This document shows, piece after piece, positions 13,282-23,284 of a stretch of 64,000 bases of DNA; position 1 is the first letter of the stretch, and the number at the start of each line of letters is the position of its first letter. The position numbers and the translations under genes are program-made. Under the pieces are notes generated by a model, which saw only the letters and a program-made list of their open reading frames with translations, was not told the DNA's origin and searched no databases. The DNA is from Blastococcus sp. (GTDB taxonomy: Bacteria; Actinomycetota; Actinomycetes; Mycobacteriales; Geodermatophilaceae): the NCBI GenBank assembly GCA_025465355.1, contig JAODNN010000009.1, positions 1 to 64,000 of the forward strand, given 5' to 3'.

Positions 13282-14508
13282 CTATGCGTCGTGAAGTCGC
13301 TCACCCGGTGCTGCCATGCCCGACCCGGTCGGGCCGGCGACCGGCCCGGCGACCCGGGCTGAGCCGTCCGTCGCACCGTCCCCCGCGGCCTGCTCCGCCG
13401 GGGACAGCGCCGGCCGGTGCTCCTCCCCCACGGTCGGTTCGTCCTTCAACCGCCCCCGCCGGTGGTCCCAGATGTCGCGGACGATCACCTGGATCATGCT
13501 CGCGACAGGGATCGCGAGGAGCGCCCCGAGGACCCCCATGAGCTCGGCGGCGATGAGGATGGCGACGATCACCGTGAGCGGGTTCAGCTTGACGGTCCGG
13601 GCGAAGATCAGCGGCTGCAGAAGGTGGTTCTCGAGCTGCTGGTAGAGCACGAAGAAGACCAGCACGACGATCCCCGCCGTCGGCGAGTGGACGAAGCCGG
13701 CGAGCACCGCGACCGCGCCGCCGATGGTGGCGCCGACCAGCGGCAGCAGGTCGGCGATGCCGACGAACAGACCGATCAGGCCGGCGAACGGCACGCCCAG
13801 GACCAGCAGCACGACGTAGGTGAGCCCACCGCAGATCACGCTGATGAGCAGGTTGCCCGAGATGTAGCCCGTGACCGACTTCGCGCAGTCGTTGCCCACG
13901 CGGCGGATCCGCTCGCCGGTGGCGGGCGAGAACAGGGCGACCGTGCCGTCGACGAGCATCGGCCCCTCGAGGACGATCAGATAGGCGAGCACGATCACGG
14001 TCACCAGGCCGGCGATGCCCGTGGCCAGCCCGGAGACGATGCCCGCCGCCGGCGCGGTCAGGCCGCTGGCGAACGAGCTGATCTTGGTCTGGTTGTGCTG
14101 CACCCAGTCGAGGACGTGGGTGCGCTGCAGCAGGTCGCCGATCGGGCCCCGGCCGGCCTTGGCCGCCCTGATCTGATCGGGCAGCTCGCCGGCGACCTTG
14201 GTGCCCTCGTTCACCAGCGGCACCGCAAAGGCAGTGATGACAGCGCCCAGGACGACGAACACCACGACGAAGACGAGGAACGTGGCCAGCGCCCGTCGCT
14301 CGCCGCGGAGCAGCCGCCGCTGCACCCAGCCGACGAGCGGTGAGAGTGCGACCGCGAAGAAGGCGCCGATCACGAGCCAGGTCAGCACCTGGCGGACCTG
14401 CAGCACGATGTACAGGAGCAGGGCGGTGGCGAGGACGATGCCGACGGCGACGAGCATCGTGCGCACCGGCACCTTCTCCTGGGCCGGGCGCACGGGGGTA
14501 GAGGTCAC
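13282..14508 (-). CDS. AI-2E family transporter
   Basis: 408 residues, GTG start. Seven or eight predicted helices: the first pair at residues 17-65, the soluble helical segment at about 100-150 (GTKVAGELPDQIRAAKAG), and the conserved C-terminal core with LLPLVGATIGG and FVLYQQLENHLLQPLIFARTVKLNPL. The tail after residue 350 is hydrophilic. Family members export autoinducer-2 or exchange Na+/H+; many are of unknown function. A second paralogue lies at 21869-23206. Confidence 0.88.
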   Translation of the reverse strand: MTSTPVRPAQEKVPVRTMLVAVGIVLATALLLYIVLQVRQVLTWLVIGAFFAVALSPLVGWVQRRLLRGERRALATFLVFVVVFVVLGAVITAFAVPLVNEGTKVAGELPDQIRAAKAGRGPIGDLLQRTHVLDWVQHNQTKISSFASGLTAPAAGIVSGLATGIAGLVTVIVLAYLIVLEGPMLVDGTVALFSPATGERIRRVGNDCAKSVTGYISGNLLISVICGGLTYVVLLVLGVPFAGLIGLFVGIADLLPLVGATIGGAVAVLAGFVHSPTAGIVVLVFFVLYQQLENHLLQPLIFARTVKLNPLTVIVAILIAAELMGVLGALLAIPVASMIQVIVRDIWDHRRGRLKDEPTVGEEHRPALSPAEQAAGDGATDGSARVAGPVAGPTGSGMAAPGERLHDA

Positions 14509-15902: not shown

Positions 15903-15916
15903 GGGCGGGAACTCCC

Positions 15917-15979
15917 GGGACGGCTGGCCGTCCCCCGAACGGGACCGCAGACTCAGGACACGAGTGCACCGTTCGGGGG
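15917..15979 (+). terminator. Two overlapping hairpins between the cupin and transhydrogenase genes
   Basis: First stem GGGACGGC-TG-GCCGTCCC (15917-15934). Second, longer-range stem CCCCCGAACGG (15932-15942) with CCGTTCGGGGG (15969-15979). The two share bases 15932-15934, so they partly compete. This could be a terminator with partial read-through or an attenuator ahead of the transhydrogenase operon. Confidence 0.5.
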
Positions 15980-16015
15980 CCGGCCGGTCCCCGCCGGACC
16001 GAGGAGGGGACGCCC

Positions 16016-17305
16016 ATGTCCAGCTATCAGCCCGCCGATCCCGAGAGCGTCTTCACCTACGGCGCCCCGCAGCTGAAGTTCGGGCCTGGTGCCGCCGACG
16101 AGATCGGCTACGACCTGAGCGTCACGGGGGCCAGGCGCGTCCTGGTGGTGACCGATCCCGGCGTGGGCGCCACCGGGCATCCGCAGCGGGTCGCCGACCA
16201 GATGACCGGCTTCGGCATCGAGGCGCACGTCTTCGACGGCGCGCACGTCGAACCGACTGACGAGAGCCTGCAGCACGCCGTCGACTGGGCGCGGGACAAC
16301 GGCCCGTGGGACGCGATCGTCGCCGTCGGCGGCGGGTCGAGCATCGACACCGCCAAGGCGATCAACCTGATGACGACGAACCCCGGCGACCTGATGGACT
16401 ACATCAACAAGCCCGTGGGTGGCGGCAAGGCGCCGGTCAACCCGCTGAACCCACTGGTCGCCGTCCCGACCACCACGGGAACCGGATCGGAGAGCACCAC
16501 GATCTGCGTGCTCGACGTGCTCTCCCTCAAGGTCAAGACGGGGATCAGTCACGCCCGCCTGCGGCCGACCCTGGCCGTCATCGACCCATCGCTCACGCTG
16601 ACCCAGCCCGCGGGCGTCACCGCTGCAGCAGGGATGGACATCCTCTGCCACGCGCTCGAGAGCTACACCGCCCGGCCGTACACCACCTACGAGCGGAAGA
16701 AGGCCGAGGAGCGGGTGCCCTACTGCGGCGCCAACCCGATCGCCGACATGTGGTCGGAGAAGGCGATGAGCCTGCTCGCCGAGAGCTTCCGCCAGGCGGT
16801 GCGCGACGGCTCGGACGAGGACGCCCGCGGGAAGATGGCGATGGCCGCGACCTTCGCCGGCATGGGCTTCGGCAACGCCGGGGTGCACATCCCGCACGCC
16901 AACGCCTATCCGATCGCCGGCCGGGTCAAGGACTTCCACCCGAAGGACTACCCGGCCGACGAGCCGATGATCCCGCACGGCATGTCGGTGGCGCTCACCG
17001 CTCCGGAGGCCTTCCGGTTCACCTTCGACGCCTCCCCCGAGCGGCACCGGAACGCGGCCCGGCTGCTCGACCCGCGTGCCGACGAGCCGTCCGACGCCGC
17101 CGAGTACCTTCCTGGAGTGCTGACGGCCCTCATGCGCGACATCGACATCCCTGGCGGCATCGGTGCCGTCGGCTACGACGAGGGCGACATCCCCGACCTT
17201 GTCGACGGCACGATGAAGCAGCAGCGGCTGCTGGCCACCGCCCCCAAGGACGTCACCGAGGACGACATCGCCGGGATCTTCCGCCGCTCGATCAGTCTGT
17301 GGTGA
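16016..17305 (+). CDS. Iron-containing alcohol dehydrogenase, hydroxyacid-oxoacid transhydrogenase type
   Basis: 429 residues. Family III Fe-dependent dehydrogenase: cofactor loop GGGSSIDTAKA, TTTGTGSEST, and metal ligands in AAGMDILCHALESY (Asp, His), VHIPHANAYPIAG and IPHGMSV. The long insert with YTTYERKKAEERVPYCGANP and the overall length match ADHFE1-like hydroxyacid-oxoacid transhydrogenase, which moves hydride from 4-hydroxybutyrate to 2-oxoglutarate, giving succinic semialdehyde and D-2-hydroxyglutarate. Strong ribosome-binding site GAGGAGGGGA. The next gene starts inside its stop (GTGA) and encodes an enzyme able to reoxidise D-2-hydroxyglutarate, which supports this assignment over simple alcohol dehydrogenase. 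Confidence 0.82.
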   Translation: MSSYQPADPESVFTYGAPQLKFGPGAADEIGYDLSVTGARRVLVVTDPGVGATGHPQRVADQMTGFGIEAHVFDGAHVEPTDESLQHAVDWARDNGPWDAIVAVGGGSSIDTAKAINLMTTNPGDLMDYINKPVGGGKAPVNPLNPLVAVPTTTGTGSESTTICVLDVLSLKVKTGISHARLRPTLAVIDPSLTLTQPAGVTAAAGMDILCHALESYTARPYTTYERKKAEERVPYCGANPIADMWSEKAMSLLAESFRQAVRDGSDEDARGKMAMAATFAGMGFGNAGVHIPHANAYPIAGRVKDFHPKDYPADEPMIPHGMSVALTAPEAFRFTFDASPERHRNAARLLDPRADEPSDAAEYLPGVLTALMRDIDIPGGIGAVGYDEGDIPDLVDGTMKQQRLLATAPKDVTEDDIAGIFRRSISLW

Positions 17306-20139
17306 GTCGCTCCACTCCCGCTGACGACGGACTGCTCGCCGCCCTGCGACGGGCCGGGGTGGCCGACGTCGACGATTCCGGGCTGGCCCGGGCGCTGTAC
17401 TCCTCGGACGCTTCGCTCTACCGCGTGCTGCCGCGTGCCGTCGTCCGGCCGCGGCATACCGACGAGATCGTCGCCACGCTGGAGACGTGCCGGGCCCTCG
17501 GCGTCCCGCTGACCGCCCGCGGTGCGGGTACCTCGATCGCCGGGAACGCCGTCGGGCCCGGCGTCGTCCTCGACACGAGCCGGTACCTCTCACGCGTCGT
17601 CGCCGTCGACGCAGAGGCACGGACGGCGACCGTCGAGCCCGGCGTCGTGCAGGCGGCGCTGCAGAAGGTGGTGCAGCCGCAGGGACTCCGCTTCGGCCCC
17701 GATCCGAGCACGCACAACCGATGCACGGTCGGCGGGATGATCGGCAACAACGCGTGCGGGTCACGGGCGCTGGGCTATGGCCGGACGGCGGACAACGTCG
17801 TCGGCCTCGACGTCGTCACCGGCGGAGGGACCCGGTTACGGCTGGGCGGCGCGGGGACCGCCGGCCACGACGGGCTGCTCGCCGACCTCCGCCGGCTGGT
17901 CGGCGACGAGCTGGCCACCATCCGCACCGAACTGGGTCGCTTCGGCCGCCAGGTGTCGGGCTACTCGCTGGAGCACCTGCTGCCCGAGCGCGGCTTCGAC
18001 GTGGCCCGCGCGCTGGTCGGGAGCGAGGGCACCCTCGGGCTGGTGCTCGGCGCCACCGTGCGCCTGGTGACCGACGCCCCGCACCGCGGCCTGGTCGTGC
18101 TCGGCTACCCGACGATGGCCGATGCCGCCGACGCGACGCCGGGGCTGCTCCCCCACTCGCCGACCGCCGTCGAGGGACTGGACGCCCGGATCGTCCAGCG
18201 GCTGCGCGACGTGCCTGCGGCCGTCGTCCCCGAGCTGCCGCGGGGCGAGGGCTGGCTGATCGTCGAGCTGACCGGCGACACCGTCGCGGAGATCGAGGCG
18301 ACGGCGCTGCGCGTCGTCGCCGACGCCGGCGCGCTCGACGCTCTCGTGGTCACGGATCCGGCCCAGACCGTGGCTATCTGGCGGATCCGCGAGGACGGCG
18401 CGGGGCTCGCCGCGCGGACCAGCGACGGGCACCCGGCGCACGCCGGATGGGAGGACGCCGCCGTTCCGCCCAAGCAACTCGGCGCCTACCTCCGCGAGTT
18501 CGAGGCCCTGCTCACCGGCCACGGCCTGCACGGCGTGCCCTACGGCCACTTCGGCGACGGGTGCGTGCACGTCCGGATCGACTTCCCGTTCGGGCCCGGG
18601 CAGGACGGGCCGGACCGCGGGCGCGCGCTGTACCGCGCGTTCGTCGAGGACGCCGCCCGCCTGGTGGCCGGGTACGGCGGCTCGCTGTCGGGCGAGCACG
18701 GGGACGGCCGTGCCCGGAGCGAGCTGCTGCCGTTCATGTACTCCCCGGCCGTCCTGTCCCTGTTCGAGCAGGTCAAGGCCCTGTTCGACCCGGCGGACGT
18801 GCTCAACCCGGGGGTCCTCGTCCGGCCGGCTCGGTTCGACGAGAACATCCGGGTGGCCGCCGCCCGGCCGCTCCGCGACGGCCTCGCGCTGGCCTACCCG
18901 CACGACGGCGGTGACTTCTCGGCCGCGGTGCACCGCTGCACCGGCGTGGGCAAATGCCGCGCGGACCTGGGCGCCGGGGGCGTCATGTGCCCGTCGTGGG
19001 CGGCCACCCGCGAGGAGAAGGACACCACCCGCGGGCGGGCCCGGGTGCTCCAGGAGATGCTGGCGCCCGGCGGGCCGGTCCGGAACTGGCGCTCGCCCGA
19101 GGTGCACGACGCGCTGGACCTCTGCCTGTCGTGCAAGGGCTGCTCGCGCGACTGCCCGACCGGTGTCGACATGGCGACCTACAAGGCCGAGGTGCTGCAC
19201 CAGTCCTACCGGCGTCGGCTCCGACCGCGCCCGCACTACACACTCGGCCGGCTGCCCCGCTGGGCCGATCTCGCCGCCCGGGCTCCCCGCGCCGTCAACG
19301 CGTTGCTCGCCTCCCGGCTGGGCGGCCGTCTGGCGAAATGGTCGGCGGGAATGGACCAGCGCCGGGACGTGCCGCCGTTCGCCCGCCGCACCTTCCGTCA
19401 CGAGTGGGCTGCCCGAACGGTCCCGGCCGGCGACGGCCCTCCGGTGGCCCTCTGGGTGGACTCGTTCACCGACCACTTCGCGCCCGGCGTGGCCGCGGCC
19501 GCCGCCCGGGTGCTGGAGGCGGCCGGCTACCGGGTGCAGGTCCCGGACGACGACACGTGCTGCGGGCTGACCTGGATCACCACCGGCCAGCTCGATGCCG
19601 CCCGGGACATCCTCGGGCAGACGGTGCACAGCCTGGCCGCCGTGGCGGCGGCAGGTATCCCCATCGTCGGCGTGGAGCCCTCCTGCACCGCGGTGCTGCG
19701 CGGCGAGGCCCTCGACCTGGTGGGCGGCCCCGAAGCCGAGCAGGTCGCACTGGCCACCCGCACGCTCGCCGAGCTGCTGACCGGGACCCCCGGGTGGACG
19801 CCGCCGGATCTGGACGGCCTCGAGGTGGTCGCCCAGCCGCACTGTCACCATGCGTCGGTCCTGGGCTGGTCGGCCGACGCGAGCCTGCTGGCCCGGGCCG
19901 GCGCGCAGGTCACCCGGCTCGGGGGCTGTTGCGGGCTGGCCGGGAACTGGGGCGTGGAGCGCGGCCATCACGACGTGTCGGTTGCGATCGCAGGGCAACA
20001 GCTGCTCCCCGCGGTACGGGACCTCGGGCCCGACGCCGTCGTCCTGGCCGACGGGTTCTCCTGCCGCACCCAGCTCGACCAGGTGGCCGGACGCCGCGGC
20101 CTGCACCTCGCCGAGCTGCTCGCGGGCCGGCTGCCCTGA
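17302..20139 (+). CDS. FAD-linked D-2-hydroxyacid dehydrogenase fused to Fe-S/CCG domains
   Basis: 945 residues. N-terminal VAO-type FAD-binding domain (ARGAGTSIAGNAVGPGVVLD, GGMIGNNACGSRALGYGRT, VGSEGTLGLV) at about 45-260, then the substrate/FAD C-terminal domain to about 500 (GHFGDGCVHVRIDFPF, SGEHGDGRARSELLP). Fe-S ligands follow: CTGVGKC plus MCPSW near 545-565 and CLSCKGCSRDC near 608. Two CCG redox motifs of the GlpC/HdrB kind lie in DDDTCCGLTW and LGGCCGLAG. This is the layout of membrane-associated D-lactate or D-2-hydroxyglutarate dehydrogenases that pass electrons to a carrier or quinone. Translationally coupled to the transhydrogenase (GTG at 17302; GTG at 17299 also possible). 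Confidence 0.85.
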   Translation: MSRSTPADDGLLAALRRAGVADVDDSGLARALYSSDASLYRVLPRAVVRPRHTDEIVATLETCRALGVPLTARGAGTSIAGNAVGPGVVLDTSRYLSRVVAVDAEARTATVEPGVVQAALQKVVQPQGLRFGPDPSTHNRCTVGGMIGNNACGSRALGYGRTADNVVGLDVVTGGGTRLRLGGAGTAGHDGLLADLRRLVGDELATIRTELGRFGRQVSGYSLEHLLPERGFDVARALVGSEGTLGLVLGATVRLVTDAPHRGLVVLGYPTMADAADATPGLLPHSPTAVEGLDARIVQRLRDVPAAVVPELPRGEGWLIVELTGDTVAEIEATALRVVADAGALDALVVTDPAQTVAIWRIREDGAGLAARTSDGHPAHAGWEDAAVPPKQLGAYLREFEALLTGHGLHGVPYGHFGDGCVHVRIDFPFGPGQDGPDRGRALYRAFVEDAARLVAGYGGSLSGEHGDGRARSELLPFMYSPAVLSLFEQVKALFDPADVLNPGVLVRPARFDENIRVAAARPLRDGLALAYPHDGGDFSAAVHRCTGVGKCRADLGAGGVMCPSWAATREEKDTTRGRARVLQEMLAPGGPVRNWRSPEVHDALDLCLSCKGCSRDCPTGVDMATYKAEVLHQSYRRRLRPRPHYTLGRLPRWADLAARAPRAVNALLASRLGGRLAKWSAGMDQRRDVPPFARRTFRHEWAARTVPAGDGPPVALWVDSFTDHFAPGVAAAAARVLEAAGYRVQVPDDDTCCGLTWITTGQLDAARDILGQTVHSLAAVAAAGIPIVGVEPSCTAVLRGEALDLVGGPEAEQVALATRTLAELLTGTPGWTPPDLDGLEVVAQPHCHHASVLGWSADASLLARAGAQVTRLGGCCGLAGNWGVERGHHDVSVAIAGQQLLPAVRDLGPDAVVLADGFSCRTQLDQVAGRRGLHLAELLAGRLP

Positions 20140-21868: not shown

Positions 21869-23206
21869 TCAGAGCGGGTCGGGCTCCGTTCCGCCGTCCG
21901 GAACCGCGTCAGGGGGCGGAGCGGAGGACGAACGGCGCAGGTGCCCGCGGCGGACCGAGGCCAGCGCGGCCCGGCGGGCGTGCATGCGCCGGCGGGCGCG
22001 CGTGGTGCGCGGGGCCCGCGGTTCCTCGCGCAGCAACGCGTCGAGCCAGTGCACCCGGGGGTCGACATCCACCAGCATCGCCTTGACCAGCAGCGTGAGC
22101 GGGATGGCGAGCAGCGCGCCGAGGGCCCCCATGACCCAGCCCCAGAACAGCAGCGCCACGAACGTGACGGTCATCGACAGCCCGACCGAGTCGCCCACGA
22201 AGCGCGGCTGGATCAGGGTCTGCACGACGAAGTTCAACAGCGAGTAGACAACGATGATCGCGGTGAACTCGCCCCATCCGCCGGCCAGCAGCCCCAGCAG
22301 GGCCGGTGGGATGACGCCGAGGACGAACCCGATGTTCGGGACGTAGTTCGTGATGAACGCCAGGACTGCCCAGAGCGTGGCGGCGGGCACGGAGAGCAGG
22401 GCCAGCGCGATGCCGTCGCAGACCGCCACGACCGCCCCGAAGACGGTGCTGACGACGAGGTAGCTGCGGGTGCCGTGGGTGAAGAGCGTGAACGCGACCG
22501 GCAGGTGCGGTCGCTCGGCTCCGACCTGAGCCAGCCGGCGGGCGAATCCACTGGACTCGATCACCATGAACACCAGCGCGGAAAGCAGCAGGACCAAGGT
22601 GCTGACCGCCGAGGTGAGCCTGCCGAGCAGACCGGTGGCCAAACCGACGACCTGGCCGTAGTCGATCTTCCGCACCAGGTCGGAGAGCTGTCCGGACACG
22701 ATCCCGGCGTGGTTGAGGTTGTTCACCACGCCGTTGATCAGTTCCTCGGCCCGCCCCGAGTAATGGGGCAGCAGTGCCGCCAATTGCGCCACGGAGAGCA
22801 CGAGCAGGGCGACGAAGGCCAGCAGGACGGTCCAGACCAGCACCAGCAGCACCGTCGTCGCCACCCAGCGGGGGGCGCCCTTTCGCCGCAGCCAGCTCTG
22901 CACCGGCGCGAGCCCGACGACGACGACCAGCGCCAAGAACACCGGCGCGACCAGCCAGGCGATCTCACGCAGCCCGGCGATGGCGATGGTCGCGGCGGCG
23001 GGGCCGACGAGCAGGAGCAGCCAGCGCGGCATCCCGGCCGGCTGCGGGGCCGGCTCGGCGGCGGCGACCGGAACCGCGGACGACGCCACGACGGCGTCCC
23101 CGGACGGCGTGTCGGAGCCGGGGGGCGGCGCGCCGTCCGGGCCCGGGCTCGGCAGCGGTCGGGGACCGGTCTGCCCGGTTCCCGTCACCTCCGGTCGCAC
23201 CGCCAT
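21869..23206 (-). CDS. AI-2E family transporter (second copy)
   Basis: 445 residues from the ATG at 23206, preceded by GGGGGAGGGGG. The first 60 residues are Pro/Gly/Ala-rich and disordered. The AI-2E fold follows: paired helices at about 60-105, the soluble part near AEELINGVVNNLNHAGIVSGQL, and the conserved core FITNYVPNIGFVLGVIPPALLG and FVVQTLIQPRFVGDSVGLS. The tail after about residue 390 is Arg-rich and cytoplasmic. Less similar to the 13282-14508 paralogue than a recent duplication would be. Confidence 0.87.
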   Translation of the reverse strand: MAVRPEVTGTGQTGPRPLPSPGPDGAPPPGSDTPSGDAVVASSAVPVAAAEPAPQPAGMPRWLLLLVGPAAATIAIAGLREIAWLVAPVFLALVVVVGLAPVQSWLRRKGAPRWVATTVLLVLVWTVLLAFVALLVLSVAQLAALLPHYSGRAEELINGVVNNLNHAGIVSGQLSDLVRKIDYGQVVGLATGLLGRLTSAVSTLVLLLSALVFMVIESSGFARRLAQVGAERPHLPVAFTLFTHGTRSYLVVSTVFGAVVAVCDGIALALLSVPAATLWAVLAFITNYVPNIGFVLGVIPPALLGLLAGGWGEFTAIIVVYSLLNFVVQTLIQPRFVGDSVGLSMTVTFVALLFWGWVMGALGALLAIPLTLLVKAMLVDVDPRVHWLDALLREEPRAPRTTRARRRMHARRAALASVRRGHLRRSSSAPPPDAVPDGGTEPDPL

Positions 23207-23284
23207 GCCCGCCCCCTCCCCCACCCACCGGTTCTACCCCTGAACGGCACGAACCGGACCGTCCGGCGCTGCCTCCTCGCTCGG

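Follow-up and report, generated by a model that had tools for sequence, protein, structure and literature searches.

Two genes that overlap by four bases in a 64,000-nt stretch of Blastococcus sp. DNA (here termed the window) pair a hydroxyacid-oxoacid transhydrogenase (HOT)-type iron-containing alcohol dehydrogenase (gene 1) with a large Fe-S flavoprotein (gene 2). Do their products work together in one metabolic cycle and, if so, on which substrate? We consider it moderately likely that the two enzymes form a coupled module, in which 4-hydroxybutyrate would be oxidized, via D-2-hydroxyglutarate, to a respiratory acceptor.

The pair lies on the plus strand of contig C38 of a 4.9-Mb actinobacterial assembly, and the ATG of gene 1 is preceded by GAGGAGGGG. 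A first-pass annotation of this DNA had given the coordinates, the GTGA overlap, and the length of gene 2 (945 residues) exactly, and the observation itself is confirmed (Table 1). Upstream, on the same strand, are genes for a TetR-type regulator and a small cupin; downstream, on the opposite strand, are genes for a GDSL lipase and a FabG-like reductase. The window neighbors of the pair (TetR, cupin, MFS, lipase, and FabG) name no substrate, and no lactonase or SSADH adjoins the pair within the window; an SSADH above cut-off (796 bits) is encoded elsewhere in the genome, which contains one full-length gene 2. The cupin and TetR genes were considered as members of the module but rejected because neither is conserved next to HOT in other loci. 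A strong hairpin that separates gene 1 from the cupin gene (RNA folding z = -4.2) suggests that genes 1 and 2 constitute a separate transcription unit. As an element in its own right, the hairpin could be a terminator without a T-run, an attenuator, or an operator. Permease-like genes flank the pair at positions 13282-14508 (AI-2E family match) and 21869-23224 (similar by eye).

Table 1. Positions of the gene pair, the upstream hairpin, and the sequence motifs of both predicted proteins in the window
Feature	Position	Strand	Basis
Hairpin between cupin gene and gene 1	15913..15998	+	Inverted repeat, 30-nt arms, 77% complementary
Gene 1 (P0001), HOT-type iron-containing alcohol dehydrogenase	16016..17305	+	ORF, ATG start, 429 aa
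Nicotinamide-binding motif GGGSSIDTAK, residues 105-114	16328..16357	+	G105, G106, G107, S108, D111, and K114 invariant (n=20 homologues)
HOT-specific insert 1, residues 222-238	16679..16729	+	17 residues relative to methanol dehydrogenase 8zwd
HOT-specific insert 2, residues 306-318	16931..16969	+	13 residues relative to methanol dehydrogenase 8zwd
GTGA overlap of gene 1 TGA stop and gene 2 GTG start	17302..17305	+	Sequence
Gene 2 (P0002), predicted D-2-hydroxyglutarate:acceptor oxidoreductase, YdiJ architecture	17302..20139	+	GTG start, 945 aa
Predicted metal/substrate site, H416..H423-V-R425	18547..18576	+	Alignment with 6lpn and YdiJ
Predicted catalytic E465-H466 (human D2HGDH E475, H476)	18694..18699	+	Alignment; roles from PMC7801405
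Two 4Fe-4S motifs, C546..C552..C563 and C608xxCxxCxxxC618P	18937..19155	+	Fer4_8 match, cysteines conserved
Two CCG motifs, C753-C754 and C876-C877	19558..19932	+	CCG match

In the proposed cycle, the gene 1 enzyme would take a hydride from a short-chain omega-hydroxy acid (4-hydroxybutyrate being the likeliest) and transfer it, via a nicotinamide cofactor, to 2-oxoglutarate, yielding succinate semialdehyde and D-2-hydroxyglutarate. Oxidation of D-2-hydroxyglutarate by the gene 2 enzyme would then restore 2-oxoglutarate, and the Fe-S/CCG half of this enzyme would hand the electrons on to a respiratory acceptor (probably menaquinone). The net reaction would convert 4-hydroxybutyrate into succinate semialdehyde; 2-oxoglutarate would serve as a catalyst, and free NAD(H) would not be consumed overall. 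Lactones or cyclic ethers would be the source of 4-hydroxybutyrate, and an SSADH would carry succinate semialdehyde on to succinate. The family features, the residues, the conserved linkage, and the context in relatives are observed, whereas the two activities, the donor used by this organism, the tight binding of the cofactor, and the acceptor are inferred. The first-pass annotation had the route avoiding NAD(H), a phrase that can cover free NAD(H) at most; the nicotinamide-binding motif of gene 1 is intact. The rationale for such a cycle would be energetic: with NAD as the acceptor, an omega-hydroxy acid is oxidized uphill, and a quinone serving as the electron sink would pull the reaction forward, in the way proposed for SerA and D2HGDH in Pseudomonas stutzeri (PMC8651671).

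The choice of 4-hydroxybutyrate as the donor comes from the neighbors of the pair in relatives, as found in a survey of 247 genomes of the class (in which a close gene 1 is one of at least 60% identity) and in a wider set of 73 distinct close loci. In the closest relative from the class survey (G020), whose gene 1 is 80% identical, the order is GntR regulator, lactonase, HOT, FmdB-like zinc ribbon, and contig end, with gene 2 opening another contig. A lactonase of the AhlS/AiiA group adjoins HOT in 15 of the 73 close loci, and HOTs of 51 to 54% identity from other classes of the phylum are accompanied by an AttM/BlcC lactonase above cut-off in eight loci (seven of the loci fetched from other classes plus L148); in two of these, a YdiJ-like FAD/Fe-S gene is also present, no more than about 3 kb away. 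AttM is the same protein as BlcC, and the blcABC pathway leads from gamma-butyrolactone (GBL) through gamma-hydroxybutyrate (GHB) to succinate semialdehyde (PMC5924552).

Two plasmids of xenobiotic degraders extend this picture; no AttM-type lactonase was found on either. In Rhodococcus ruber YYL, plasmid pYYL1.1 carries the pair next to THF monooxygenase genes (thmA of this strain; PMC4429620) and a GntR regulator; THF is degraded via gamma-butyrolactone or an aldehyde to gamma-hydroxybutyrate and then succinate (PMC7758286). On a 156-kb plasmid of Mycobacterium dioxanotrophicus (L184), the two genes share a four-base overlap, as they do in the window, and an SSADH above cut-off (819 bits) is situated near the pair; this cluster also carries glyoxylate genes, such that its pair could serve the products of dioxane. 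In Rhodococcus pseudokoreensis (L186), an SSADH (above cut-off), a transporter, and an intact HOT lie beside a decayed gene 2; the remnant, at L186:11290-12000 on a plasmid, follows straight after HOT, with the SSADH and an MFS transporter retained. No paper in the literature searched connected HOT with THF or dioxane. Taken together, the lactonase, SSADH, and THF monooxygenase neighbors in relatives argue for 4-hydroxybutyrate as the donor.

Could the same transhydrogenase/D-2-hydroxyglutarate cycle run on another donor, such as 3-hydroxypropionate (the propionate shunt), 5-hydroxyvalerate, or 2-hydroxyethoxyacetate? We hold this to be unlikely but worth weighing. HPHD-1 of Caenorhabditis elegans works on 3-hydroxypropionate (PMC10096224), and a Chloroflexi HOT of 43% identity (L172:6388-9266) immediately follows a gene that scores above cut-off as a methylmalonate-semialdehyde dehydrogenase, a context pointing to 3-hydroxypropionate or 3-hydroxyisobutyrate. 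HOT relatives of 45 to 46% identity (L068, L069, and L180) adjoin a 4HBT thioesterase, and in L068 a Baeyer-Villiger-type monooxygenase and an Abhydrolase_3 esterase are also near HOT, suggesting cyclic-ketone degradation; the glyoxylate genes near the pair of the dioxane degrader likewise fit another donor. Donors may therefore differ between branches, given that the distant HOT branches have other neighbors. Against another donor for gene 1 itself, its homologues of 72 to 80% identity adjoin an SSADH or a lactonase, and the next HOT branch adjoins an AttM-type lactonase. As such, the donor named in the first-pass annotation gains from the AttM-type lactonases, SSADH, and THF monooxygenase found in relatives, whereas the window neighbors and the distant HOT branch count against it. 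Whether lactonase, HOT, FAD/Fe-S D-2-hydroxyglutarate dehydrogenase, and SSADH make up a widespread catabolic module for lactones and cyclic ethers in the Actinomycetota, with a 2-oxoglutarate/D-2-hydroxyglutarate shuttle taking electrons from 4-hydroxybutyrate straight into the respiratory chain, is in our judgment evenly balanced.

Some neighbors recur without entering into this argument. A gene for a small FmdB-type zinc ribbon protein is situated directly 3' of HOT in at least 13 loci (L065, L104, L105, L112, L113, L114, L116, L120, L138, L142, L145, L149, and L153), often with a lactonase before HOT. NUDIX and methyltransferase genes that neighbor HOT in one family were set aside, as they look like plain synteny within related genomes.

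The gene 1 protein matches the Pfam families Fe-ADH (PF00465; 150.7 bits) and ADH_Fe_C (PF25137; 118.2 bits), and its AlphaFold model (pLDDT 92) has members of the Fe-ADH superfamily as all of its best 50 PDB matches. The HOT subfamily is marked by two specific inserts, of 19 and 13 residues in human ADHFE1 (PMC5125639); gene 1 has both, as does every HOT homologue aligned. At the position of the active-site (second) His of other iron ADHs, gene 1 has Y298, which is invariant among the homologues (n=20). Inserts and Y298 together range over the Actinomycetota, Chloroflexi, Planctomycetes, Myxococcota, Azospirillum, and Bacteroidota, and RefSeq gives the name hydroxyacid-oxoacid transhydrogenase to the plasmid homologues and to homologues of 49 to 73% identity. 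By its Pfam domains and inserts, the placement of gene 1 in the HOT subfamily (cd08190), as in the first-pass annotation, holds up at the level of sequence. As of a 2016 survey, the activity of HOT proteins outside animals was unknown (PMC5125639).

Gene 2 has Pfam matches to FAD_binding_4, FAD-oxidase_C, Fer4_8/Fer4_17, and CCG, in the same order as in Escherichia coli YdiJ, to which it aligns colinearly over the full length (29% identity); its earlier assignment as an FAD/Fe-S/CCG enzyme of the D-lactate/D-2-hydroxyglutarate class agrees with these matches and this colinearity. YdiJ was purified as a specific D-2-hydroxyglutarate dehydrogenase, and its loss causes D-2-hydroxyglutarate to accumulate in the cell (PMC9504171). 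Because gene 2 scores far below the cut-off of the YdiJ equivalog NF049975 (427 bits versus 1350), we do not file it as YdiJ, and YdiJ has the second CCG motif only, whereas gene 2 has both. The structure of human D2HGDH (6lpn; PMC7801405) served as the guide to active-site residues. Those binding the head group of a 2-hydroxy acid (R363, H416, H423, E465, and H466) are all kept in gene 2 and, along with R425, are common to gene 2 and YdiJ. The ligands of the C5 carboxylate in the human enzyme are Lys401 and Asn443 (PMC7801405), for which gene 2 has Trp383 and Arg425; YdiJ is also without both. The Arg at the Asn443 position is invariant in the aligned gene 2 homologues and in YdiJ, and other residues occupy this position in E. 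coli GlcD, LctD, and solved D-lactate dehydrogenases. Thus, R425 favors a dicarboxylate substrate for gene 2, although this is not proof. We predict that gene 2 encodes an FAD/Fe-S/CCG dehydrogenase with YdiJ architecture that acts on D-2-hydroxyglutarate.

These same features bear on a reading with no transhydrogenase, in which gene 1 encodes an NAD(P)-dependent omega-hydroxy-acid dehydrogenase of the ordinary kind, whose cofactor is exchangeable, and gene 2 acts in the same catabolic setting on, for example, D-lactate. The intact nicotinamide motif of gene 1 is compatible with such an enzyme, and the relatives of gene 1 solved in the PDB are mostly NAD(P) enzymes, but the HOT inserts and Y298 speak against it, as do scores under the NCBIfam cut-offs of all characterized members (including lactaldehyde reductase and NDMA-dependent methanol dehydrogenase, and with 188 bits against a cut-off of 500 for the NAD-dependent 4-hydroxybutyrate dehydrogenase, NF058672). 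For gene 2, AlphaFold and Foldseek confirm the fold and rank D-lactate dehydrogenases first, slightly better than D2HGDH, although this comparison does not separate D-lactate from D-2-hydroxyglutarate enzymes. Dld-II, the Fe-S D-lactate dehydrogenase of the Shewanella type, is a serious alternative model for gene 2. Against a GlcD or D-lactate dehydrogenase identity, R425 agrees with YdiJ and not with the solved D-lactate dehydrogenases, and the score for glcD (TIGR00387; 211 bits) is below the cut-off of 568; a D-lactate dehydrogenase would also leave the conserved pairing with HOT unexplained. Overall, we regard the reading with an ordinary dehydrogenase as quite improbable.

That pairing is frequent. 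In the class survey, gene 2 adjoins gene 1 in 16 of the 25 relatives with a close gene 1, with one further probable adjacency in G020, where genes 1 and 2 face the same contig break; by our own estimate, chance adjacency is expected at roughly 0.002 per genome. Across the wider set, gene 2 is at most 3 kb from gene 1 in 34 of the 73 distinct close loci, and 22 of the 73, some of which are short contigs, have no sought partner within 3 kb. Gene 2 is present in 26 of the 28 genomes with any gene 1 match versus 106 of the 219 without (p = 3e-6, with genomes counted without correction for relatedness). Across 31 linked pairs, pairwise divergence in one protein tracks that in the other (rho 0.91), a match to which shared descent also contributes. 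On the gene 2 tree, linkage to HOT is clustered yet present in several deep clades and requires at least five to seven changes, which indicates that the association has persisted or re-formed across deep splits. In a Planctomycetes contig (L161), a relative of gene 2 with the same Arg motif lies near HOT and is transcribed divergently. The pairing of genes 1 and 2 is not a product of chance.

In a Desulfobacterales contig (L176), HOT adjoins a gene for a GlcD-type FAD protein; this was considered as an independent pairing but is not used as evidence because the FAD protein is without the D-2-hydroxyglutarate ligands. At this locus (L176:4140-9269), a TRAP transporter, the GlcD-type FAD oxidase, and HOT occur in a row.

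Gene 2 homologues do exist in 132 of the 247 class genomes, mostly without gene 1, and in both E. coli and P. stutzeri, D-2-hydroxyglutarate that arises from SerA is recycled enzymatically (PMC9504171, PMC8651671). Even so, the idea that gene 2 serves general clean-up of D-2-hydroxyglutarate (e.g., from a SerA side reaction), metabolically meaningless in its place beside gene 1, is very hard to credit against adjacency in 16 of 25 relatives, matched divergence, and translational overlap in the window as well as on the plasmid of M. dioxanotrophicus. The coupling of the two enzymes claimed in the first-pass annotation has accordingly gained conserved adjacency, co-occurrence, and matched divergence, with the function still predicted. 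Its reading of a 2-oxoglutarate cycle is, overall, partly supported and is strengthened by the comparative evidence: genes 1 and 2 appear to form a real, testable metabolic module whose chemistry is predicted from sequence.

If the cycle with 4-hydroxybutyrate operates as proposed, it would provide the first function of a HOT outside eukaryotes and fill in the 4-hydroxybutyrate step in the breakdown of THF. Familiar chiefly as an oncometabolite and side product, D-2-hydroxyglutarate would become a normal electron carrier in bacterial catabolism, and efforts to engineer strains that use 1,4-butanediol or butyrolactone would gain a new route for electrons. The conserved operon offers a cheap and concrete test case, with one enzyme pair, one substrate, and one diagnostic metabolite.

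Systems of this kind are known from animals; the bacterial form, with an Fe-S flavoprotein and lactone-pathway neighbors, was not found described in the literature searched. In C. elegans, the HPHD-1/DHGD-1 cycle with 3-hydroxypropionate has been shown by deuterium tracing (PMC10096224), and mammalian ADHFE1 uses 4-hydroxybutyrate as the donor (PMC5125639). The logic proposed here is the same as that of ADHFE1/D2HGDH and HPHD-1/DHGD-1, in which HOT makes D-2-hydroxyglutarate and a flavin enzyme returns 2-oxoglutarate, and gene 1 has the subfamily inserts of the animal HOTs. Unlike the animal pair, the bacterial genes overlap in one operon, their activity is predicted, and, in place of the mitochondrial D2HGDH of ~480 residues, gene 2 encodes a 945-residue FAD/Fe-S/CCG protein. 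In this respect, it resembles the YdiJ proteins of E. coli and Pantoea (colinear FAD, 4Fe-4S, and CCG parts; 29 to 30% identity; Arg at the Asn443 position), although it is shorter and has two CCG motifs to the one of YdiJ, which acts on a side product of SerA (PMC9504171).

With respect to the pathway as a whole, its steps look like those of Agrobacterium blcABC, since relatives of gene 1 adjoin AttM/BlcC- or AhlS-type lactonases, with an SSADH nearby in some. The GHB step of blcABC is performed by an NAD-linked dehydrogenase, BlcB, whereas here it would fall to a transhydrogenase backed by a respiratory flavoprotein. The SerA/D2HGDH system of P. stutzeri likewise employs D-2-hydroxyglutarate to carry electrons and pull an unfavorable oxidation forward (PMC8651671), but with another first enzyme and in another pathway, serine synthesis.
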